Part shown: piece after piece, positions 3,390 to 23,243 of the stretch
Position numbering within the stretch: the stretch's first letter is position 1
How the letters are laid out: each line of letters begins with the position of its first letter
Assembly (NCBI GenBank): GCA_020630015.1
Contig: JAHDCF010000035.1
Location: 1-33,553 of the forward strand
Direction: 5' to 3'
DNA: 33,553 nt
Source of the DNA: Planktomarina sp.
GTDB lineage: Bacteria > Pseudomonadota > Alphaproteobacteria > Rhodobacterales > Rhodobacteraceae
Program-made: the position numbers and the translations under genes
The notes under the pieces: model-generated
Databases searched by the model: none
What the model was told of the DNA's origin: nothing
Seen by the model: the letters and a program-made list of their open reading frames with translations, nothing else

Positions 3390-5927
3390 ATGCGCGGTCC
3401 TTTAATGGAGCCGCTGCCGAAACAGGCAAGACGTGCCCTGAGGCTGACCCATTGGGGGCTGTGGGGGGAGCGGCTTTGGCGTGCCTTCTGGCCGTTTTTA
3501 ACACTGATATGTCTTGGGATTGCGCTTGCGTTTTTGACAACGCCAGATGCTTGGCCGATCGAAGGTGTTTGGTTGGTGGTCGCGACATTTGTCGCGGCGT
3601 TTTTATGGGCAATTGTTTATGCGGTTCGTCATTTCCGTTGGCCAACGAAACGGGACGCACAAGATCGCTTGGATTTGCATTTTGACGACCAACCGCTGAT
3701 GGCGTTGGACGATACTTTGTCGGCCGCATCCAACGACGAAGCGGCCAAAACCCTTTGGGAAGCGCATCAAACCCGAATGCGCCAACAGGCGTCAAAGGCC
3801 AAAGCAGCAACCCCCGACATGCGTATTGCACGAATGGATCCCTTTGCCCTGCGGTATATGGCGATGTTGTTGGCGATGATTGGGTTGATTTTTGGAAGCC
3901 TTTTTTCATTTCGCGAAATTGAATTGACCGCATCTCAACAGGTTGCAACGGGCCCGGTTTGGGAAGGCTGGGTGCAACCCCCAAGATATACCCGAAAGCC
4001 AACGCTGTACTTGAATGATTTGATGGGGCAGACCGTTTCAGTCCCCGAAGGTAGCGAAATCATGATCCGCCTTTACGGAGAGGTTGGTGAATTCACGGTG
4101 GATGAAACCGTGTCAGCACGCATTGGCGATTTGCCCAGTGTGACCGAGGCCGAACAACGTTTCAGCGTGGTGCAATCCGGACGAGTGTCTGTGAACGGAA
4201 ACAGGGGCGCCGATTGGGTGATCGCGATGCAGCCCGATCAACCACCTTCGATCCAACTCACCGAAAGCCCCGCAGATCGTCAGGGGGCACCGGGTTTGTA
4301 TCGCCAAGATTTCAAAGCATTGGACGATTACGGTGTCATCTCAGGCGAGGTAGAGGTCGTTTTGAACCTGCAAGAGGTTGACCGGCGTCATGGCCTTGCC
4401 TTGGCCCCGTTTGAACGTGCACCGTATAAATCAGCAATCCCTCTGACGGTTTCTGGCAATCGTGCGGATTTCCAAGAAACTTTCTCAGATGATTTTTCCA
4501 AACATCCTTGGGCCGGGCTTCCGGTGCGTGTTGTGTTCACGGTCAATGATGCCGCGGGGCAGGCAGGTTCATCAGCAGTAGAAGAGATGACATTGCCATC
4601 ACGCGCATTTTTTGACCCGATGGCAAAGGCCTTGATCGAACAGCGACGGGACATCCTGTGGACCCCGGAAAATTCCACGCGCAGCTCTCAGATTTTGCGT
4701 GCCTTGCGGGTGGCGCCCGATCAGGTCTTCCGTGATATCGAAGATGATACAACGTTGCAGGGTATCATTGCGTCTTTGGAACAAGGTTTGCCCGATGAGG
4801 CAAAGACCAATGATGTTGCCGAAGAACTTTGGAATTTGGCGATTGAACTGGAAGACGGCGATTTGGCTGATGCGGCGGCGGCTTTGGAACGCGCCGAAGC
4901 CAAATTGGAAGAGGCGATCCGCAATGGCGCAAGCCCCGAAGACATCAAAAGATTGATGGATGAATTGCGCCAAGCACAACGCGATTACATGCAAGAATTT
5001 GCCGAACGAAATCCACCTGAAGCCGGTGAACAACAACAGGGCCAGCAAGGGGAAGAAGTGACCCAAGATCAATTGCAAGAGATGATGGACCGTTTGGAGC
5101 AATTGATGAAAGAAGGGCGCATGGCCGAGGCACAAGAGTTGTTGGAAGAAATAAATCGTCTGATGGACAATCTTGAAGTCCAGCAAGCCCAAAACGGCCA
5201 ACAAGGCCAAGGCCAACAACAGATGCAAGATTTGTCAGACACATTGCGCGAACAACAAAACCTGAGCGATGAGGCATTCCGCCAGCTTCAAGAACAATTC
5301 AATCCAAATGGTCAGCAACCCCAAGGTCAGCAAGGGGATGGCCAACAAGGCCAACAACCCCAAGGTCAACAGGGGCAACAAGGGAATGGTCAGGATCAAG
5401 CGGGGAATGGCCAACAAGGACAGCAACCTTCTTTGGCGGATCAGCAACGTGCCCTGCGCCGTGAATTGCAAAGGCAACAACGTGGGTTGCCCGGGGCAGG
5501 TACCGAAGAAGGGGAAGAGGGTCGCCGCAGGCTTGGCGAAGCCGCAGATGCGATGGATCGGGCGGAACAAGATTTGCGCGACGGCGACATGGCCGGGGCG
5601 ATTGAAAATCAATCCCAGGCAATTGAAAATCTGAGGGAAGGATTGCGAAACCTTGGCGAAGCCCTTGCAAATGAACAGCAAGGACAGGGCCAAGCTGAGG
5701 GCCAGGCAAATGGTCAACAGTCTGGGCCACGTCAAGATGATGTTGATCCAACCGGGCGCAGTTTGGGAATGAATGGCAACAGTGGCACCCAAGAAAACGC
5801 CCTTCCCGAACAGGAATTGCGGCGCAGAACGCAAGAGTTAACAGAGGAAATTCGCCGCAGGTCAGGTTCCCTAGAGCGGTCGCAGGAAGAGCGGAATTAC
5901 CTCAAAAGATTGTTGGAAGACGACTAA
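3390..5927 (+). CDS. DUF4175 (TIGR02302-type) large membrane protein with Gln-rich C-terminus
   Basis: The 845-residue protein fits the alphaproteobacterial DUF4175/TIGR02302 family, whose function is not established. Two hydrophobic segments lie near residues 33-50 and 57-75 and a third near 152-170. A periplasmic region follows with beta-rich segments (a WEGWVQPPRYTRKPTLYL motif near 190, and DDYGV). The last 350 residues are alpha-helical and Glu/Gln-rich, with many QGQQ copies (about 600-680). It may start at 3390 or at the ATG at 3405; neither has a strong ribosome site. The stop overlaps the stop of the convergent zinc-ribbon gene by 4 bases (CTAA). It could act in the cell envelope, but this is only inferred from topology. 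Confidence 0.85.
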   Translation: MRGPLMEPLPKQARRALRLTHWGLWGERLWRAFWPFLTLICLGIALAFLTTPDAWPIEGVWLVVATFVAAFLWAIVYAVRHFRWPTKRDAQDRLDLHFDDQPLMALDDTLSAASNDEAAKTLWEAHQTRMRQQASKAKAATPDMRIARMDPFALRYMAMLLAMIGLIFGSLFSFREIELTASQQVATGPVWEGWVQPPRYTRKPTLYLNDLMGQTVSVPEGSEIMIRLYGEVGEFTVDETVSARIGDLPSVTEAEQRFSVVQSGRVSVNGNRGADWVIAMQPDQPPSIQLTESPADRQGAPGLYRQDFKALDDYGVISGEVEVVLNLQEVDRRHGLALAPFERAPYKSAIPLTVSGNRADFQETFSDDFSKHPWAGLPVRVVFTVNDAAGQAGSSAVEEMTLPSRAFFDPMAKALIEQRRDILWTPENSTRSSQILRALRVAPDQVFRDIEDDTTLQGIIASLEQGLPDEAKTNDVAEELWNLAIELEDGDLADAAAALERAEAKLEEAIRNGASPEDIKRLMDELRQAQRDYMQEFAERNPPEAGEQQQGQQGEEVTQDQLQEMMDRLEQLMKEGRMAEAQELLEEINRLMDNLEVQQAQNGQQGQGQQQMQDLSDTLREQQNLSDEAFRQLQEQFNPNGQQPQGQQGDGQQGQQPQGQQGQQGNGQDQAGNGQQGQQPSLADQQRALRRELQRQQRGLPGAGTEEGEEGRRRLGEAADAMDRAEQDLRDGDMAGAIENQSQAIENLREGLRNLGEALANEQQGQGQAEGQANGQQSGPRQDDVDPTGRSLGMNGNSGTQENALPEQELRRRTQELTEEIRRRSGSLERSQEERNYLKRLLEDD
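5185..5437 (+). repeat. Gln/Gly-coding low-complexity repeat inside the DUF4175 gene
   Basis: Short, imperfect units of the type CAACAAGGCCAA recur many times and encode Gln-Gly-Gln runs such as QGQQPQGQQ. A second, smaller patch of the same kind lies near 5675-5730. Such units can expand or contract without changing frame if changes come in multiples of three. Confidence 0.8.
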
Positions 5928-6682
5928 GCCCCGCCGCCCATTTGCGCGTCCAGCCAAGTTTGGGCATCAGAAGCTTTTTCGGAAAGCCAACTGCGCAAAC
6001 CATCGACCCAACTTACGTAACTGTTCAAGTAATCGGTGGTGGCGGGAATGTTCTTTTGAATGATCGGCGCATCTTTGTATATGAAGAACGCCAAAATGAG
6101 GATCGCAATGGCCACCCAAAACCCAAACTGAAATCCAAACCGATTTCGCCGTTTCAGTTTTGTTGGATCTTCAGCAGGAATCTCTTTTTCGCGCGGTTGC
6201 AGGCCGGACAATGCTTCGTCCATGTCGGTATCAAGATCATCGACATCGGGCAGGCTGTCTTTGGATTTTTCGGCCGGTGCCCGTTCTTCGATTTCTGTTG
6301 CAGAGGTCGCCGGCGCGGTGGCCGGCAGATCGTCCAAACCTAAATCTTGTTGGCGTTCCAATGCTGCATTGGCATCTGCCTTGCGGGCGGCGACCTCGCG
6401 ATCGACCTCTTGTTGCAAGATATCCTTTACACTTGCGTCCAGCTCTTGACGCGGTGGCAGGGGGTCACGCTCTTGTGGTGGGTAAGGCCGCGGAGGCGCC
6501 TTAGGCGCCGGGCGCGGGCGCGGGGTTTCCCCAACCGCTTTGTCCGAAGGGTTTTCAGGGCGTGCAAACCATGTTTGTCCACAATCAGAACATTGCACAT
6601 CCCGCCCTGTTGCGGGGATGGCATCATCAGGCACTTCGTATCGCGCCGCGCAATTTGGACAGGTTATTCGCACTTCATTCAA
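5924..6682 (-). CDS. Zinc-ribbon (MJ0042-type) single-pass membrane protein
   Basis: The 252-residue protein begins with a zinc ribbon of the MJ0042/zinc_ribbon_5 type: Cys8-x2-Cys11 and Cys31-x2-Cys34, the second followed by GQTWF. A proline-rich and acidic linker follows, then one transmembrane helix at about 190-208 (FWVAIAILILAFFIY) and a short C-terminal tail. With the zinc ribbon before the helix, a cytoplasmic N-terminus is likely. It is divergent from ftsE with a 141-base gap, an arrangement I recall in Rhodobacteraceae. Its function is unknown; regulatory or anchoring roles are possible. Confidence 0.85.
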   Translation of the reverse strand: MNEVRITCPNCAARYEVPDDAIPATGRDVQCSDCGQTWFARPENPSDKAVGETPRPRPAPKAPPRPYPPQERDPLPPRQELDASVKDILQQEVDREVAARKADANAALERQQDLGLDDLPATAPATSATEIEERAPAEKSKDSLPDVDDLDTDMDEALSGLQPREKEIPAEDPTKLKRRNRFGFQFGFWVAIAILILAFFIYKDAPIIQKNIPATTDYLNSYVSWVDGLRSWLSEKASDAQTWLDAQMGGGA

Positions 6683-15438: not shown

Positions 15439-15468
15439 TTGTTAGACTTTTAAGTCACACATTATCTG

Positions 15469-15507
15469 GGGGGGACGGGTCCGCGCGCGTTCCCCCTTGT
15501 TGTTTTT
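15469..15507 (+). terminator. Intrinsic terminator after the dgcN-dgcA-dat operon
   Basis: GGGGGGACG (15469-15477) pairs with CGTTCCCCC (15488-15496), with one G-U pair, giving a 9-base G/C-rich stem and a 10-base loop. TTGTTGTTTTT follows directly. Only 47 bases separate it from the start of the next gene. Confidence 0.85.
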
Positions 15508-15554
15508 AAGGAAATCTCGTTCTTTCCGCAAAACTGAATTTGGGGGGACTGACC

Positions 15555-18500
15555 GTGCATGTAATTCTCGGCGTCATCGTATTGGTATTAGGTGTTGGTA
15601 TTCTTGGCTGGTGGGGCACGACCCACAATGCCGTCGATATGGAAGCCGACATTACAGAACGCGCAGGTTCTGCGTTGGGTCAAACAACACATCCGGTTGA
15701 TTTACGGGTATTTGGTCGTGACGTCACTGTGACGGGCCGCGCAAATTCAGAGGCCGAACGCGATGCAATCGTCGATCGCTTGAATGCTTTGGACGGACGT
15801 CGGGTGGTTCATGATGAACTAGACCTTTTGAAGGTCGCGTCGCCTTATGTTTTCAAATCACAAAAATCAGCTGATGGGCAATCATTTGCGGGCAACACCC
15901 CAACCGAAGGTCAACGATCCACATGGGCTGGATCTCTTGGGGATGCGGCGGCTGGGTTCGACCTTGCCGCAGGGATGCCCGACGCACAGTGGCCTTCCGT
16001 GGTGGATAAAGGTCTTGCTGGTTTGGCCCTTTTGAAAAATGGCGAATTGAATGTTTCTGACCGCGATGTGCGCATCACCGGTCTTGCCGGTTTGCCTGCG
16101 CAGCGTGAAGCGGCATTGAATGCCATCGGTGATCTTCCTGAAGGGTATTCCCTGACCAGCGATATCCAGATTGAGGATGATGGAACGCCAATGCGTTTGA
16201 CCGTGCGTCGTGACGAAGCAGGGGCAACCGCGGTTGGGAAATTCCCAGCTGACATGGACCCTGCGATTGTTGCGGGTGCCTTGGGCCTTGATGCGACTGA
16301 AGGTGACATCAACGTCGCACAGGTTGCTGCGCCTTACGCCGATTGGAATACGACGGTTGATACCGGGCTTGGTGCCTTGGCCAAACTATCCACTGGTACT
16401 TTGGCGATCGCGGATCGCGATGTTTCGTTGACAGGCACAGCAACACGTGCAGATCGTGATGCGGCCATTGAAATGATGTCTGGTATTTCTGGCGATTATT
16501 CGGTGTCTACAGACATTGGGTTTGTCGACGATGGCCAGCCGTTCAATTTGATGGCTGTGCGCGGGGCCGAAGGTAACACAATCTCTGGCAAGGTTCCGTT
16601 TGGTATGGCGAATACCGATTTGGCTGGTGTCGCCGGGTTTGATGCGACTTCGGATGTGCAAGTAGCTGAGATCGAAGCAGATGGGATGAATTGGCCCGCT
16701 GTTTCGGGTTTGGGTTTGTCCGCATTGGGCAAATTGCAGACGGGTAACCTTTCAGTAACTGACAATGCGGTCAATTTGTCTGGTGTTGGATCACGCGCAC
16801 AAATTGACGCCGCAAAAACATTGCTGGCTGGGATGCCAGAAGGGGTTGCGGTTACCGAAGATCTGAACATTTTTGATGATGGAAAAGCCTTTGGATTGGT
16901 TGCTGCCAAAGCGGCAAACGGTAACAGCCTTTCAGGCAAGCTTCCTTACGCCATGAAAGATACTGATTTGGCTGCACTTGCCGGATTTGAAGCGCAATCA
17001 GATGTTCAAGTCGCGGATATAGACGCAGATGGCATGGATTGGTCGTTGGCATCTGGCGCTGGGCTTGGGGCACTTGGTGCTTTGGATTCAGGTGAATTGT
17101 CTGTGGCCGAAGGTTCAATTTCCTTGAGAGGTGTTGGAACACGTGCAGGTATCGCTGCTGCCAAGGAATCCCTTGCCAAGGCGCCTGAAGGTGTGAGTGT
17201 TTCTGAAGATTTGGCCATTGCCGATGATGGGCAACCCATGTCTTTGATGGTGGACAATACGTCTGGTCAACCTGTTGCATCTGGAAAATTGCCATTTGGA
17301 TTTGGTGATGCAGAGGTTGATACTGCGTTTGGATCTGACGTGGATACCAACGGCGTGACCTTCGCAGAAATCGAAGATCCCGCGTTTGCCGATCGCGCGA
17401 ACAATGGTTTGATGGCGCTGTCGAAGTTGCAACGTGGATCTCTGACGCTTGGTTCTGACACCACAAAACTAACCGGCACGGCAATCACCCCAACGGGTAT
17501 GGCGGCGGCCATGGCGGCTTTGGGTGACGGTGCTGCGGAAATGGCTTCAATCGAAGTGATCGATGATGGTGCACCGTTTGTATTAAACGCGCAACGTCGT
17601 GGTGGAATGACGACAGTTACAGGCAAATCCCCAGCTGAATTGTCAGCGGCGGCCATTGAAGGGCTTGCCACAGGGAATGCGACTGTTGGTGCAGATGTAT
17701 CTGCCCTTTCAGGACCTGATTTTGCAATTCGCGCGTCATCGGGTTTGAAGGCATTGGACGCATTGAAAGATGGTATGTTGACCGTAACGGAAGATGCGGT
17801 TGAGCTGACGGGTGCAGGAACGCGGGAAGGTGTTGCCGCGGCTGAGGCTGAACTGGCCAACATCACGGACGTAAACGTAACCAAGTCTTTGTCTTTTGCA
17901 GATGATGGTGCGCCATTCTCGCTTGAGGCAAGCTATGATGGGAAACAGGTGTTGTCGGCTGGTAAACTGCCGTTCGGTATGGACACAGATATTGCCGCGT
18001 CTGTTCTGGGTGTAGAAAGCCCATCATCCCTAACGCGCAATGCAGATATCGAAAGTGCAGACGGCCAATGGCCAGGCTTTGCCAGCACTGGTTTGATCGC
18101 ATTGAAAGGCCTGAATTCTGGCCAATTGTCTGTCACTGGTTCTGAAATGACTTTGACCGGTGTTGGCACCCGCGCTGCAAAATCAGCGGCACAAGACGCG
18201 CTGGCAACAGTGCCTGCGGGTTATACCGCAACATCCGACATCAGCATCTTTGATGATGGTGAAGCATTGATGTTGAACGCGACACGCGGTGAAAGCACGA
18301 TTGCCTCTGGTAAACTGCCGTTTGGATTGTCTGATACATATTTGTCAGGTGCCTATGGTGGTGATTTGGACACCAGCGCCGTGAAACGAGGTGAGCTGAC
18401 AAACGGCGCATTTGCACGTCGCACAAGTGCCGGGCTGGCTGCCCTCGCTGGTCTTGAAACGGGTGAGCTGACGGTCACAGAAGGCAAAACAATGCTAACT

Positions 18501-19745
18501 GGTATGGCAACCAATCCAGCGGCACGGTCTAAGGCGATTGCACCTTTGGCAGGTCTTGATGATGTGGTTACAGACATTGATGTGCTGGACGACGGTCGTC
18601 CGTTTGCGATGCGAGTTGATTACGATGGTCAGGTGGCCGTCGGATCTGGCAAAGTTCCGGCCGAAATGTCCGCCGATGTGGTGTCAGGCGCATTTGAAGT
18701 GAACAGCGATGTTGATCTCACTGTGTCACGCAATGGCGATGCGGGTTTTGACGCCAAAGCCCGTGCAGGGTTGGCATCATTGGCAATGCTGGAACGCGGG
18801 TACATGCAGATCGAAAACAATCTGCTGACAGTTCGCGGTGATGCACGCACACCCGCTGAAAAAGCCAAAGCGGAAGAAGCTTTGGGTGGTTTGGGTGACG
18901 TGGTTGCAATCAATGCGCTTGATGATGGTAAGGCCCCGCGCTTTACCGCGGATTATCGCAAAGGTGCATCCGCCACATTGATCGGAAAATTGCCGGAAGG
19001 TGTGTCAGCATCTGATGTGGCTGGATCGCTTGGTCTTGCTTCATTCGACAGCTCAGCGACCGAAGGAATGATGGATACGGATCAACCCGTCTTGGATCAG
19101 TTGGGCAAACTTGCGTCCGCTGTTCCACAGGTGGATTACCTGATCTTTACGGGTGGGGACATCGATCCTCAAATCGAAATGGGTGCATCGGAGGGCGTAG
19201 ATTACAACGCCTTGAAAGCAGGGGTGCTTGCTGATTTCCCAACCGCGATTGTCAATCCTGCACCCGAGCGTGCCCCACAAAATGGGGATCGTCGTGTAAA
19301 TGACGAAACCGGTCAGGATGAGGAATATCGCGATGGTGCATGGCGTACCGTGTTTGGTTTCAGCCCAACACCAGATGCATGCCGCGCGGCGACGACGGAT
19401 CTGCTGGCGGACAACCAAGTTAACTTTGTCACCTCCAAGGCGGATCTGGATCCATCTTCTGCCCAAAGCATTGCACGCCTTGCTGGTCTGATCGATTTTT
19501 GTATTCGCGAAACCAATCTGAAACTGGAAGTTGCGGGTCACACCGACAGCGTTGGTTCAGAAAGCAGCAACCAATCGTTGAGCGAAGCACGAGCAAATGC
19601 AGTGCGTGATGCATTGTTGGCCCGTGGCCTGCCGGCGGATCGCATGGTTGCAACTGGATATGGTGAAGCACAACCGATTGCGGATAACGACACGGACGAA
19701 GGCCGTGCCGCCAACCGCAGAACTGAAATCAACTGGTCCGAGTAA
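15555..19745 (+). CDS. Membrane-anchored protein with about nine BON-like repeats and a C-terminal OmpA domain
   Basis: This 1396-residue protein has one N-terminal membrane helix (about 3-21) with no cleavage site seen. A half-unit follows (residues ~50-120), then nine units of about 115 residues. Each unit has an aromatic, GLxALxxLxxGxL, xLxGxxxR, an Ala-rich helix, DDGxPF and SGKxPxG. The alternation of strand and helix resembles BON domains. The last 120 residues are an OmpA peptidoglycan-binding domain (VAGHTDSVG, LSEARANAVRDAL, ANRRTEI) with two cysteines before it. The architecture recalls mycobacterial ArfA (helix-BON-OmpA), much expanded. The GTG at 15555 is chosen for the GGGGGGA 6 bases upstream; TTG 15540 is the alternative. 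It probably forms a unit with the next gene. Confidence 0.85.
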   Translation: MHVILGVIVLVLGVGILGWWGTTHNAVDMEADITERAGSALGQTTHPVDLRVFGRDVTVTGRANSEAERDAIVDRLNALDGRRVVHDELDLLKVASPYVFKSQKSADGQSFAGNTPTEGQRSTWAGSLGDAAAGFDLAAGMPDAQWPSVVDKGLAGLALLKNGELNVSDRDVRITGLAGLPAQREAALNAIGDLPEGYSLTSDIQIEDDGTPMRLTVRRDEAGATAVGKFPADMDPAIVAGALGLDATEGDINVAQVAAPYADWNTTVDTGLGALAKLSTGTLAIADRDVSLTGTATRADRDAAIEMMSGISGDYSVSTDIGFVDDGQPFNLMAVRGAEGNTISGKVPFGMANTDLAGVAGFDATSDVQVAEIEADGMNWPAVSGLGLSALGKLQTGNLSVTDNAVNLSGVGSRAQIDAAKTLLAGMPEGVAVTEDLNIFDDGKAFGLVAAKAANGNSLSGKLPYAMKDTDLAALAGFEAQSDVQVADIDADGMDWSLASGAGLGALGALDSGELSVAEGSISLRGVGTRAGIAAAKESLAKAPEGVSVSEDLAIADDGQPMSLMVDNTSGQPVASGKLPFGFGDAEVDTAFGSDVDTNGVTFAEIEDPAFADRANNGLMALSKLQRGSLTLGSDTTKLTGTAITPTGMAAAMAALGDGAAEMASIEVIDDGAPFVLNAQRRGGMTTVTGKSPAELSAAAIEGLATGNATVGADVSALSGPDFAIRASSGLKALDALKDGMLTVTEDAVELTGAGTREGVAAAEAELANITDVNVTKSLSFADDGAPFSLEASYDGKQVLSAGKLPFGMDTDIAASVLGVESPSSLTRNADIESADGQWPGFASTGLIALKGLNSGQLSVTGSEMTLTGVGTRAAKSAAQDALATVPAGYTATSDISIFDDGEALMLNATRGESTIASGKLPFGLSDTYLSGAYGGDLDTSAVKRGELTNGAFARRTSAGLAALAGLETGELTVTEGKTMLTGMATNPAARSKAIAPLAGLDDVVTDIDVLDDGRPFAMRVDYDGQVAVGSGKVPAEMSADVVSGAFEVNSDVDLTVSRNGDAGFDAKARAGLASLAMLERGYMQIENNLLTVRGDARTPAEKAKAEEALGGLGDVVAINALDDGKAPRFTADYRKGASATLIGKLPEGVSASDVAGSLGLASFDSSATEGMMDTDQPVLDQLGKLASAVPQVDYLIFTGGDIDPQIEMGASEGVDYNALKAGVLADFPTAIVNPAPERAPQNGDRRVNDETGQDEEYRDGAWRTVFGFSPTPDACRAATTDLLADNQVNFVTSKADLDPSSAQSIARLAGLIDFCIRETNLKLEVAGHTDSVGSESSNQSLSEARANAVRDALLARGLPADRMVATGYGEAQPIADNDTDEGRAANRRTEINWSE
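15950..19040 (+). repeat. Tandem BON-like coding repeats, nine units of about 345 bases
   Basis: The GLxALxxL motif recurs with starts near 15976, 16336, 16687, 17035, 17389, 17722, 18069, 18412 and 18748, so the period is 333-360 bases. Units 2, 3 and 4 are most alike (VPFGM/LPYAM/LPFGF, DVQVAEI/DVQVADI); units 5, 6, 8 and 9 are more diverged. Divergence at DNA level is high, so the array is old rather than a recent expansion. Confidence 0.85.
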
Positions 19746-19807: not shown

Positions 19808-20503
19808 ATGTTCCGTGAATGGGGTTTTCTTTTAGGCGAGATCTGGGTTCTTCTTGCATTGGCCGCGTTGATCGGCCTGTTTGCAGGATGGTTAATCTGG
19901 GGACGCCGGTCTGAAGTTAATGTCGATGGTGATGTACAAGGTGATCTTGATGCATGCTTGCGCGGTCGTGCCGACCAAGACGCAGAAATTGCACGCTTGA
20001 AAGCCGATTTGGAAGCTTGCCGCAACGATTGCGCCAGCAAAGACGCAGAAATTTCTGCCGCCGCAAAAGCTGCAACCGCCGCCGCCGCCGCAACGGCCGC
20101 AGCAGCTGCAGTCGCTGCGAAGCCGAAGCCAGCACCAAAGCCGAAACCGGCCGCAAAGATCGAAGCCGATGATCGCGATTTTGATGGCGATGGCGTGATC
20201 GAAGGTAAAAACGAAGGTACCCGACCCGAGCAGTTGAAAGCTGCACGTGGTGGCAAAGCCGATGATCTGAAAATGATCAAAGGTGTTGGCCCAAAAATGG
20301 AAAAGCTTTGTAACAAACTGGGCTTTTACCATTTTGACCAAATCGCCAGCTGGAAGAAAGCCGAAGTGGCGTGGGTTGACGCAAACCTAGAAGGTTTCAA
20401 AGGCCGCGTTTCCCGTGATGAATGGGTCAAGCAAGCCAAGATTTTGGCCAAAGGGGGAACGACAGAGTTTTCCAAAAAGGTCAAAAAAGGTGGCGTGTAT
20501 TAA
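19808..20503 (+). CDS. Membrane protein with Ala-rich coil and C-terminal helix-hairpin-helix domain (COG3743-like)
   Basis: The 231-residue protein has one membrane helix (about 12-32) followed by GRR, so the rest is predicted to be cytoplasmic. Next come a likely coiled coil with repeated Cys and Asp (DADLEAC-like pattern, about 45-85), an Ala-rich stretch, a Pro/Lys linker (about 100-115), an acidic DRDFDGDGV patch and a C-terminal domain (about 150-225) with LKMIKGVGPKMEKLCNKLGF and DQIASW. That domain is the helix-hairpin-helix type seen in COG3743 and also fused to NuoE and L21 in this group. AAGGGAG precedes the ATG. It follows the OmpA-domain gene by 62 bases with no terminator between. 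Function unknown. Confidence 0.8.
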   Translation: MFREWGFLLGEIWVLLALAALIGLFAGWLIWGRRSEVNVDGDVQGDLDACLRGRADQDAEIARLKADLEACRNDCASKDAEISAAAKAATAAAAATAAAAAVAAKPKPAPKPKPAAKIEADDRDFDGDGVIEGKNEGTRPEQLKAARGGKADDLKMIKGVGPKMEKLCNKLGFYHFDQIASWKKAEVAWVDANLEGFKGRVSRDEWVKQAKILAKGGTTEFSKKVKKGGVY

Positions 20504-20531
20504 GAACCTGACAAGGGTTACAATTGAAAAG

Positions 20532-20556
20532 GCCGTCCCAATGGGGCGGCTTTTTT
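20532..20556 (+). terminator. Intrinsic terminator after the helix-hairpin-helix gene
   Basis: GCCGTCCC (20532-20539) pairs with GGGGCGGC (20543-20550), with one U-G pair and a 3-base loop, followed by six T. It closes the transcript of the OmpA-domain and helix-hairpin-helix genes. Confidence 0.88.
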
Positions 20557-20684
20557 CGTGTTGAAATTGAATAAAATGCCCCATTATCGGCGAAACTTTG
20601 CAAGATTTGCGGATATTTCCCCCCATCGTTGACAGCTTAGAGTTGCCATTTGATGCTGATCCTCAACAATCGGTGGAGGATGTT

Positions 20685-22184
20685 ATGGAAATTTTACTAA
20701 TTTTATTGGGTTTGGCATTCCTGCTTGATGGAAGCGACGGGGGATCGTCAACATCTGACGCAACAGCCGAATCTGGAGAAGACACCGTTTCCATGGGGTC
20801 AGGTGATGACACCATTGATATGGGTTCCGGCGACGATGGCATGGCACCCGGATCCGGTGATGACACCGTGAACGCCTCGGGCGAAGATTCCTTGAATATC
20901 ATAACCTTTGGTTCAGGTGATGACACGTTGATTGGCGATATCGATCCTTCACTGGTTTATGGTGGATCTGGTGCAGATACACTTTCCTTGTACGCGGGTG
21001 ACGACAGCGCCTTTGGCGGCGACGGGAATGATGAAATCAATGCGGGCGACGGCGAAGACAGCATCTTTGGTGGCGTGGGTGATGATCTTATTCGTGGTGG
21101 ATTGCGAGGGGACGTCTTGGTTGGCGGATCGGGCGAAGACACCTTAGACGGCGGATACGGAGACGACACTGTCTCTGGTGGGCCGGGCGATGACAGCATC
21201 GTTGGCGGCGTCGGTGATGATGAGCTTTATGGATACGGCCAAGATGATGAGATCTTGGGTGGTGCCGGCGTTGATACCCTTTGGGGGGGGACGGGCGCTG
21301 ATACGTTGAATGGCGGAACAGGTTCCGATCTAATCTACAGCGGCAACGCGGGAACTACACCCGATTTGATCTATGCCGGCGATGGAATCGACGAGGTTTA
21401 TGGAGATGGTGGTCTTCAGATCGTCTATGGTGGGGGTGGCATCGATCTTATTTATGGGGGTGCTGGTGCCGATAATCTTCATGGCGAAAATGGTTCTGAC
21501 AGCATGTTTGGTGGCGTAGGCGCCGACATTATGTCGGGGGATAATGGTAATGATCGTCTGCACGGTGAAGTGGGTGATGATATCCTTTCAGGCGGCGATG
21601 GTGCAGATGTATTGGAAGGTGGATCGGGTGCCGACAATCTGGATGGCGGGTTTCACAACGATACACTTTTTGGTGGCAGCGGATTTGATACGTTGAACGG
21701 CGGTGGTGGAGCAGATGTTCTGACCGATGGTGACGGCCGATCGTTGATGTTTGGTGGTGCAGGCAACGATTACATTTCTGGCATCGATTCAGTCGACTAT
21801 GTTTTTAACGACGATAGCATCGCGGGCGGATCTGGCGCTGACACATTGATTGGGGACAATAATGACACCCTTGCAGGGCATTATCTCCAAAGTGGCGTGG
21901 GTGATAACGCCGAAGATGTATTTGTCGTGCGTGTGGACGATGCCGAAGAAACCAATGTTGTAATTCGGGGGTTCGAAGTGGGCACGGATGTTATCGCCAT
22001 TGATGTCAGCAATCACCCTGATGCAGATAACATTGATCCCAGTGACGTTACGGTCGAAACCTCACCTAATGGGCAAAATACAATCGTCAGACTCGGCGAT
22101 GAACAAGTTGCTGCGATAAAAGGACGTGTCGGGATTTCGCCGTCAGATGTTGTGCTGATAAACGCACCCCAAGAAGGGGGTTGA
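20685..22184 (+). CDS. RTX calcium-binding protein with N-terminal hydrophobic segment
   Basis: The 499-residue protein has about 27 RTX nonapeptides (GGxGxDxxx) between residues ~100 and 420, which bind calcium and form parallel beta rolls outside the cell. Before them is a second, shorter GSGDDT-type repeat (about 35-90). The first 15 residues (EILLILLGLAFLL) are hydrophobic without a leading basic residue. The C-terminus (about 425-499) has FVV, RGFEVGTDVIAID and VVLIN, resembling the C-terminal part of other type I secreted proteins. The ATG at 20685 has GGAGG 5 bases upstream. No transporter gene is in the window. Role unknown: adhesion, matrix or cell-surface function are options. Confidence 0.85.
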   Translation: MEILLILLGLAFLLDGSDGGSSTSDATAESGEDTVSMGSGDDTIDMGSGDDGMAPGSGDDTVNASGEDSLNIITFGSGDDTLIGDIDPSLVYGGSGADTLSLYAGDDSAFGGDGNDEINAGDGEDSIFGGVGDDLIRGGLRGDVLVGGSGEDTLDGGYGDDTVSGGPGDDSIVGGVGDDELYGYGQDDEILGGAGVDTLWGGTGADTLNGGTGSDLIYSGNAGTTPDLIYAGDGIDEVYGDGGLQIVYGGGGIDLIYGGAGADNLHGENGSDSMFGGVGADIMSGDNGNDRLHGEVGDDILSGGDGADVLEGGSGADNLDGGFHNDTLFGGSGFDTLNGGGGADVLTDGDGRSLMFGGAGNDYISGIDSVDYVFNDDSIAGGSGADTLIGDNNDTLAGHYLQSGVGDNAEDVFVVRVDDAEETNVVIRGFEVGTDVIAIDVSNHPDADNIDPSDVTVETSPNGQNTIVRLGDEQVAAIKGRVGISPSDVVLINAPQEGG

Positions 22185-22198
22185 CTGATCATGGGGTA

Positions 22199-22612
22199 TT
22201 AGGAGGAACTAACCTGATGCACCTCAACGACGTTCCCATCGGGATCATAGAAAAAGATTTGGTGCCATCCGTCGACGGCGGTGTGGCCCCAATCTGAAAA
22301 GGGAATTTCAGCGGCGGTTAGCGTTTCTTTTACAGCTTCCAAATCCGAGGTCCGATAGGCCACATGCCCCCGCGAAACTGGGTTGACGGCTTGACCCGTT
22401 TTAAAACCTGCATGGATGTCTTTTTGGGCAAGATGCATCTGAATTTTGCCGTCTGACAAAAAGGCGACATCCCCGGCGTATCCTTTGCCTTTTTCCAGCT
22501 TCGGCAAACCATCCACATTTGAAGACAGCCCCAGTACGTCTTCATAAAACCGCCGCATGCGATCAACGTCTTCGGTCACCAAGTTGATGTGATGCAGCTT
22601 CAGGTCAGCCAT
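22199..22612 (-). CDS. VOC (glyoxalase/bleomycin resistance) family protein
   Basis: The 137-residue protein is a single-domain member of the vicinal oxygen chelate superfamily. Paired beta-alpha-beta-beta-beta modules are visible, with the metal-ligand-type positions HHINLVTEDVDRMRRFYEDVLGL at the N-terminus and GHVAYRTSDLEAV, FFYDPDGNVVEVHQV at the C-terminus. Its substrate cannot be told; members include lyases, dioxygenases and resistance proteins. It is the last gene of a four-gene minus-strand operon and its start overlaps the DUF1244 gene by 8 bases. Confidence 0.88.
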   Translation of the reverse strand: MADLKLHHINLVTEDVDRMRRFYEDVLGLSSNVDGLPKLEKGKGYAGDVAFLSDGKIQMHLAQKDIHAGFKTGQAVNPVSRGHVAYRTSDLEAVKETLTAAEIPFSDWGHTAVDGWHQIFFYDPDGNVVEVHQVSSS

Positions 22613-22907
22613 GGCTGTCTTTGAATTTTGCCTTTACTTCATCGCTGGCGTCTGTTTGAAAGTTTGCCTTCCATTCGGAAAATGGCATTCCGTAAAATGC
22701 CTCGCGACCTTCATCCTTGGTCATCTCAATTCCGTGTGCATCCGCCGCTTCTTGATACCAACGGCTAAGACAGTTTCGGCAAAACCCGGCAAGGTTCATC
22801 ATATCGATGTTTTGCACATCGGTACGATCTTCCATCAGATGCTTTTGCAATCTTCGGAATGCAGCGGCTTCAAGTTCAAGCTGGGTTTGTGGGTCAATTT
22901 TTGCCAT
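22605..22907 (-). CDS. DUF1244 family protein
   Basis: The 100-residue protein matches the small DUF1244 family of proteobacteria: an all-helical chain with the conserved block DVQNIDMMNLAGFCRNCLSRWY, in which the cysteine pair CRNC stands out, followed by YGMPFSEWK. Its function is unknown. It starts directly against the stop of the tautomerase gene (0-base gap) and overlaps the following VOC gene by 8 bases, so all are in one transcript. Confidence 0.9.
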   Translation of the reverse strand: MAKIDPQTQLELEAAAFRRLQKHLMEDRTDVQNIDMMNLAGFCRNCLSRWYQEAADAHGIEMTKDEGREAFYGMPFSEWKANFQTDASDEVKAKFKDSHG

Positions 22908-23243
22908 TCAAAGATACCGTTTTGCGTAGCTTTCACCGTGCATATCCACGATTTCACAGGTCAGGCTGGCCGTATTGGGGAAAGCGGATTCAAGCGCGCC
23001 AAGAACCGCTTGGCTAACTTCTGATTTAAGATCATTTGTGCGTCCCGCAAGCATTCGAACCGTTGCGTGTACAAAATCATCACCTGTGCCACCTGTATGA
23101 TTGGCGCACAGGCGTGATCTTACTTTGACGGCCTCTGGATTTGGAAACGTTTCACATCCGCAAGCTGCTTCAAAAACAGCTTTGCATACGTCTGCCATTT
23201 TTGCCGCGGTTTTTTCGGTGTGTTCGATGACGATATGTGGCAC
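22908..23243 (-). CDS. 5-carboxymethyl-2-hydroxymuconate isomerase-like tautomerase
   Basis: The 111-residue protein resembles the CHMI family of the tautomerase superfamily, in which the N-terminal proline exposed after Met removal is the catalytic base; here Pro2 follows the start in MPHIVIEHT. The segment VRSRLCANHTGGTGDDFVHATVRMLAGR fits the family. It starts at a GTG with AGAGGGG just upstream, one base after the amidohydrolase stop. No other genes for homoprotocatechuate breakdown are nearby, so the true substrate may differ. Confidence 0.8.
   Translation of the reverse strand: MPHIVIEHTEKTAAKMADVCKAVFEAACGCETFPNPEAVKVRSRLCANHTGGTGDDFVHATVRMLAGRTNDLKSEVSQAVLGALESAFPNTASLTCEIVDMHGESYAKRYL

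Follow-up and report, generated by a model that had tools for sequence, protein, structure and literature searches.

A BON-type repeat array with a C-terminal OmpA domain as a candidate membrane-to-wall tether of expandable reach in Planktomarina and its relatives

ArfA (OmpATb, Rv0899) of Mycobacterium tuberculosis joins an N-terminal anchor, a BON-type centre and a C-terminal OmpA-type peptidoglycan-binding domain, and its operon also holds the small membrane proteins arfB and arfC. A paper of 2011 is said to describe an Rv0899-defined family in nitrogen-fixing bacteria. The ArfA central domain is described in a review as having six strands and three helices (PMC6151718). Here we describe a 33.6-kb contig of Planktomarina (JAHDCF010000035.1; "the window" hereafter means this whole stretch of DNA), in which an open frame with a GTG start (15555..19745, + strand, as are all features located below unless stated) encodes a protein of 1396 amino acids (aa) composed of an anchor, about ten modules and an OmpA domain. 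We call it the array protein and, with the balance of probability modestly in favour, we read it as an inner-membrane-to-wall tether of Rhodobacterales, built on the ArfA plan, of expandable reach and working with a membrane protein encoded downstream.

The sequence-only reading of this gene had already compared its helix, BON-like array and OmpA domain with the ArfA plan, and that comparison was upheld: in a PDB search with A-B- and B-A-phased unit profiles, the ArfA/Rv0899 chains ranked top at whole-sequence E values of 0.005 to 0.04, with all others at E >= 0.3. The 6-strand/3-helix central domain of ArfA equals the periodicity of one array unit, and ArfA is among the matches of the array protein's OmpA domain to solved structures. 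However, ArfA belongs to a different phylum and has a single central domain where the array protein has about ten modules. The array locus also differs in lying among D-amino-acid genes and in having a transmembrane (TM) partner gene whose C-terminal domain is of another kind. What is new is the ArfA plan with an expanded array and a conserved partner; ArfA is its one-domain precedent. An identical domain order, again mostly alphaproteobacterial, is found in the BON + BON + OmpA cluster 7 of PMC7806268 (Table 1; 220 UniRef100 entries, 157 of them alphaproteobacterial), although its members have two BON domains and the available passages of that paper contain no arrays of 4-9 units. Short relatives of 480-750 aa probably belong to this cluster. 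DolP and OsmY also carry tandem BON domains in the periplasm, yet they have only two, which in DolP are of the order alpha-beta-beta-alpha-beta, and lack an OmpA domain; moreover DolP, in the passages available, is an outer-membrane lipoprotein, whereas the array protein has no lipobox Cys, its first Cys standing only at aa 1276. Among the titles and abstract openings listed by literature searches, which reached few subscription journals, none dealt with arrays of more than two BON domains with OmpA.

The array gene is preceded by a ribosome-binding-site-like GGGGGGA (15542..15548), 6 bases ahead of the start codon. A hydrophobic segment at aa 3-20 (15561..15614) is a probable uncleaved inner-membrane anchor, a call made by inspecting the sequence by eye; behind it lies a conserved Ala, for which position -3 is not A, G, S, T or V in 20 of 23 proteins (the window protein and 22 relatives with the motif). 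Module 0 (aa 31-145; 15645..15989), delimited by Pfam and the unit profile, consists of a BON domain and a second half, without helix 1; the Pfam BON score of the protein is 56.6 bits in all, above the gathering score, with its best stretch at aa 31-90. Unit profiles place the nine units at 15990..16337 (unit 1, aa 146-261), 16338..16685 (unit 2), 16686..17033 (unit 3), 17034..17378 (unit 4), 17379..17714 (unit 5), 17715..18062 (unit 6), 18063..18404 (unit 7), 18405..18740 (unit 8) and 18741..19073 (unit 9, assigned by the unit tree to the last-unit clade). A possible, strongly diverged terminal half-module follows at aa 1174-1235 (19074..19259), where no profile matches. The OmpA-type peptidoglycan-binding domain which had been read at the C-terminus is confirmed at aa 1291-1388 (19425..19718), where Pfam scores 76 bits (cut-off 27.2). 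The order of anchor, module 0, nine units, terminal half-module and OmpA domain is sequence-based, except for the terminal half-module, which is drawn by eye. Within the OmpA domain, the Asp of GHTD and the Arg of LSEARA, in the patterns (H/Y)TD and LS..RA, are shared with solved peptidoglycan-binding domains in 5/5 alignments shown, the ArfA chain 2lbt included. We take these two positions to be those of D271 and R286 in the OmpA of Acinetobacter baumannii. In the part of that study available, D271 and R286 contact diaminopimelate (PMC6572160).

Nine diverged units of about 115 residues had been claimed, and nine were recovered. DDG occurs nine times in the array protein, 111-117 residues apart, and profile A1, which comes from the larger set and includes the window's own units, finds nine units at E values of 4e-26 to 1e-36, whereas the N-terminal tenth module is weak (E 4e-3; 6e-4 in the smaller set). 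A profile built from the nine window units alone also counted nine in relative L031 and nine in relative L032, and 200 shuffled versions of the array protein reached a best whole-sequence score of 6.1 bits against the unit profile. Since the nine units have a mean pairwise identity of 33% and Tandem Repeats Finder lists no tandem repeat in the window DNA, the units are old; the latter result also rules out a recent DNA tandem duplication. The invariant core among 42 aligned units from the window and relatives is DDG ... GKxP. This part of the shared pattern first described therefore stood, but the Arg of its xLxGxxxR element is found in only 5/9 window units (2, 3, 4, 6 and 7). The "half-unit" placed ahead of the array has to be redrawn as a module without helix 1 rather than half a unit, because module 0 aligns to positions 21-102 of the 115 in the unit profile, and the stretch from its second half to the first half of unit 1 gives a B-A-phased profile match at E 1.4e-16.

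Averaged hydrophobicity and propensity, a simple, home-made estimate smoothed partly by eye, give for one unit the order helix, strand, strand, helix, strand, DDG, strand, strand, helix, strand, that is 3 helices and 6 strands. Taking half A as the part before DDG and half B as the part after it, this suggests a module of B (beta-beta-alpha-beta) and A (alpha-beta-beta-alpha-beta), in which half B would lack the first helix. When profiles were compared, half A matched BON (27 alphaproteobacterial BON domains) in local hhalign with a probability of 80.5 and a score of 27.4, the best of 100 column shuffles reaching 15.2; the proposed BON relationship of the unit held for this half in local mode. 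When 48 B-A modules were isolated from the array protein and its relatives, a BON match at E <= 0.1 was obtained for 10 of them, the best at 0.0014. Half B and half A gave no signal against each other in profile comparison, and the PDB search with the long profile A2 returned nothing above chance (best E 0.24, ArfA 0.33). We infer the fold of the unit and the shape of the array. That the unit might be new as a fold was not borne out, its periodicity of 3 helices and 6 strands being the count of the ArfA central domain.

How the array grew can be followed in a tree that contains 67 units taken from 14 proteins. A single starred clade (98/97) is made up of the last units of 14/14 proteins and holds no other unit, 28 of 40 interior units fall into a second clade (89/91, unstarred), and units 5 and 8 of nine-unit proteins, which lie outside the interior clade, form a starred group of their own. 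One row, G365_u1, is the N-terminal module of its protein, admitted by the threshold, and stands on a very long branch. Two nine-unit relatives share 56.6 and 58.2% identity with the window protein, and in each the same-position unit is the best match by pairwise identity for 7/9 window units; the off-position best matches concern units 6 and 7 in the comparison with G019, and units 3 and 7 in that with G013. In the tree, eight of the nine positions of nine-unit proteins form three-species groups, 5 of these starred. Because of this clade placement and the same-position best matches, we consider that the last unit is old and fixed in place, and that the interior units multiplied, probably several times independently.

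Unit number varies widely among relatives. The array was detected at E <= 1e-20 in 11 of 20 Planktomarina genomes, its own included, with 9 units in three, 7 in one and 3 in seven; the other nine genomes (67-99% complete) had no match at this threshold. The transaminase gene that lies upstream of the array gene was found in seven of these nine (not in G006 and G016), and from it to the downstream genes 7/7 loci contained no intact array and no partner at E <= 1e-4, while G007 retains at such a locus a 158-aa remnant with the hydrophobic segment and BON. Outside the genus, DDG-type relatives have 1 unit (L154-L157, L189), 2 (L164), 3 (many), 4 (L148/L181, L179, L183), 5 (L150/L190, Harenicola maris) or 6 (L149/L170, Shimia ponticola), so that the numbers overall are 1, 2, 3, 4, 5, 6, 7 and 9, with no 8 seen among the DDG-type relatives examined. 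Random repeat loss without an OmpA domain, which had been named beforehand as the outcome that would tell against a spacer, was mostly not what we saw: the domain was detected in 6 of 9 relatives scanned, these with 1 to 7 units. In the wider searches, the A-B profile matched 271/394 genomes of the family at E <= 1e-4 and 45/394 at 1e-10 or better (counted by hand), and in a sample of the class 6/190 genomes matched, the own genome and two of the same family included. At E <= 0.001 the B-A profile had a match in every genome sampled from the order (121/121), but the sample consisted entirely of the window's own family, and many of the matches listed lie in paralogue-sized frames of about 620-720 aa.

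The paralogue in question is a BON-OmpA protein of about 620-680 aa, present in the window's own genome (G000:C6, L043 5515-7368) and at similar loci. It resembles the array protein in having an N-terminal BON, three diverged unit matches and a C-terminal OmpA domain, but its DDG count is 0 or 1 in eight copies (L043-L050) and it does not lie at the array locus. The eight paralogue loci L043-L050, together with L153, gave no match to the partner gene P0002. In three loci inspected (L043, L048, L153), a TM/coiled-coil open reading frame (ORF) of 90-110 aa lies downstream of the paralogue.

Upstream of the array gene are genes for DgcN, DgcA and a D-amino-acid transaminase, and this synteny is common to array loci with 1, 3, 4, 5, 6, 7 and 9 units; at the syntenic locus Planktomarina has 9, 7 or 3 units or no intact array and other genera have 1, 3, 4, 5 or 6 units. 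Arrays at L154, L155, L156, L159, L162 and L164 have no DgcN, DgcA or transaminase neighbours within the stretch fetched. Downstream, P0002 (231 aa; 19808..20503) begins 62 bases past the array-gene stop and comprises an N-terminal TM segment, recognized by eye, a low-complexity linker and a C-terminal domain. Of 31 array loci, which are those fetched and not a random sample, 28 have a homologue of P0002 downstream of the array and in the same orientation, with the paralogue loci L043-L050 and L153 outside the count. Between the transaminase gene and the array gene there is a terminator-like hairpin followed by TTGTTGTTTTT (15468..15497), with an RNA fold of -21.9 kcal/mol (z -1.95; 7/200 shuffles as good). 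A second one, with a 14-bp stem and a T run, lies past the partner gene (20526..20556), where a stretch of 71 nt has a folding energy of -27.1 kcal/mol (z -3.94; 0/200 shuffles as good). A simple terminator scan listed neither. The array gene and P0002 form a two-gene unit bounded by terminator-like hairpins.

P0002 has no Pfam match at E <= 0.01. From its IKGVGPK motif we take the C-terminal domain to be of the helix-hairpin-helix type. The TM segment is followed by Arg-Arg, and therefore, by the positive-inside rule, the C-terminal domain would be cytoplasmic. This domain is a shared tag. A subunit of complex I has it too (9wqv_a, 4e-27), as does chain O of the reaction-centre complex RC-LH1 (8yy9_O, 1.5e-38), while the scores of the P0002 domain against the NCBIfam models for NuoE, L21, S2 and phasin PhaH fall below the cut-offs. 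A link of P0002 to photosynthesis through RC-LH1 chain O was set aside, as the clean alignment covers only the C-terminal domain, which the complex I subunit has as well; all six terms searched for were absent from the Dinoroseobacter shibae RC-LH1 paper (PMC12079452). It could be imagined that array and partner make a two-gene link across the envelope, in which the cytoplasmic tag docks bioenergetic or other inner-membrane machines and the BON array fastens these to the wall; the number of units would then set the reach and tune where the docked complexes can move. We hold this to be a long shot.

The tether that we favour would have its N-terminus in the inner membrane, its BON array in the periplasm and its OmpA domain gripping peptidoglycan. 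Its interior units would provide expandable and probably partly flexible spacing, which would set the reach of the tether and not the exact distance between membrane and wall. The last unit, and probably also the N-terminal module, would make fixed contacts, on the wall side and on the membrane or partner side, respectively, and P0002 may couple the anchor to something at the cytoplasmic face. Ten modules of about 3 nm each (115 aa, if globular) add up to about 30 nm end to end, whereas a typical periplasm measures about 20-25 nm. As an array of this length exceeds the usual periplasm and 0-9 units occur at one locus, reach or slack is a better description than fixed distance. Coupling of the inner membrane to the wall in Gram-negative bacteria, and the role of spacer length in it, are hard to test without a natural length series. 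Here a single locus in a marine lineage offers orthologues with 1, 3, 4, 5, 6, 7 and 9 units along with close relatives that lack gene and partner there, so that array length can be compared directly with envelope spacing, and the role of the conserved partner tested.

Several results weigh against this interpretation. The alignment behind the unit tree is short in columns, and the bootstrap is not settled; 12 of the 40 interior units lie outside the interior clade, and the first units have no resolved placement. Kinship with BON was undetectable for half B, whose hhalign score of 8.4 lies inside the shuffle range (best 11.8), so in this half the proposed relationship was not shown, and even for half A the global mode gave a probability of only 4.2. 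The ArfA match is weak, with E 0.6-0.8 at best for single stretches, and the two profiles disagree over the first ArfA stretch, one aligning it with half B and the other with half A. No P0002 homologue was found at E <= 1e-8 at L034 and L035 (720-aa arrays) or at L157, which has a TM/coiled-coil ORF lacking the C-terminal domain of P0002. In the scan of nine relatives, the OmpA domain was not detected in L151 (1138 aa) and L165 (575 aa), nor in L195, a 158-aa remnant. Finally, because of the nine Planktomarina genomes without a match, the role of the array is dispensable or lineage-specific.

The array had been pictured as a long rod holding the membrane at a set distance from the wall. Such a strict ruler draws on the nine units being largely held in position across three species and on a fixed last unit with interior expansion, which suits a spacer; there is also a precedent, since Lpp of Escherichia coli sets envelope length, and 14 or 21 added residues widen the periplasm by 3 or 4 nm in the passages available (PMC5736177). 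A stiff rod that fixes the distance fits poorly, however, with a locus at which the members of one genus have 0, 3, 7 or 9 units, and with ten modules that would be longer than the periplasm. The unit numbers weaken the picture of a rod, and we regard it as improbable. Alternatively, unequal recombination might alter unit number without any function. The wide spread of unit number, the array-less genomes of the genus and the off-position best matches at 2/9 units in each nine-unit comparison are all what drift would leave, yet nine units have been retained, with mostly position-specific identity, over about 42% protein divergence; no repeats remain at the DNA level, the last units form their own clade, and array and partner are absent together. 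We give drift little credence.

Equally little is given to an array whose units would bind anionic phospholipid, with the OmpA domain only keeping it by the wall and more units adding avidity. The BON kinship of half A speaks for it, as does the first helix of DolP BON2, which binds phosphatidylglycerol and cardiolipin and guides localisation according to the available passages of PMC7806268. In the same passages, though, BON1 of DolP was found without lipid binding, the key residue W127 is missing from BON1 and OsmY, and the authors suggest that binding lipid is not a general property of BON domains. Lipid binding becomes less likely because of that BON1 result and the authors' doubt about BON domains generally, and the strongest conservation in the array units, DDG ... 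GKxP, lies outside helix 1. That the array is instead adhesive, exposed at the surface or borne on vesicles, is the thought behind a last alternative: two annotated OmpA/MotB-domain outer-membrane lipoproteins, which would have to be kin of the array family, are abundant in vesicles of D. shibae, as given in the available part of PMC7901474. The missing lipobox Cys argues against it, the OmpA domain and the inner-membrane-type partner point to the periplasm, and we find it very hard to credit.

Some further observations concern individual loci and neighbouring genes. Two arrays belong to a branch in which the DDG core is nearly absent: L151 5368-8784 (-) has one DDG and 8 units at E < 1e-3, and L152 4357-7806 (+) has no DDG and 7 units; these arrays are apparently independent expansions. 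At L158 (G181:C1:2025000-2037000) the array gene is split into several frames by TAA and TGA stops, while the neighbours and the partner give full-looking matches; it is a decaying gene or an assembly error. As for a mobile origin, the whole array protein had no match in plasmids at E <= 1e-30, and its aa 1-598 had none in phages at E <= 1e-3. Past the partner gene, the window encodes at 20598-22184 an RTX-type calcium-binding repeat protein of 528 aa with 12 stretches, which has homologues only at L032 and L158 among the compared loci. At 22611-23024 the window encodes a 137-aa protein without Pfam or NCBIfam match, homologues of which lie near the array in 8 compared loci and at 5/7 loci without an intact array. 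In another part of the window, positions 5001-6000 show a strong AT skew (0.365). This lies towards the 3' end of a DUF4175 gene (3390-5927), and both strands have long open frames there.

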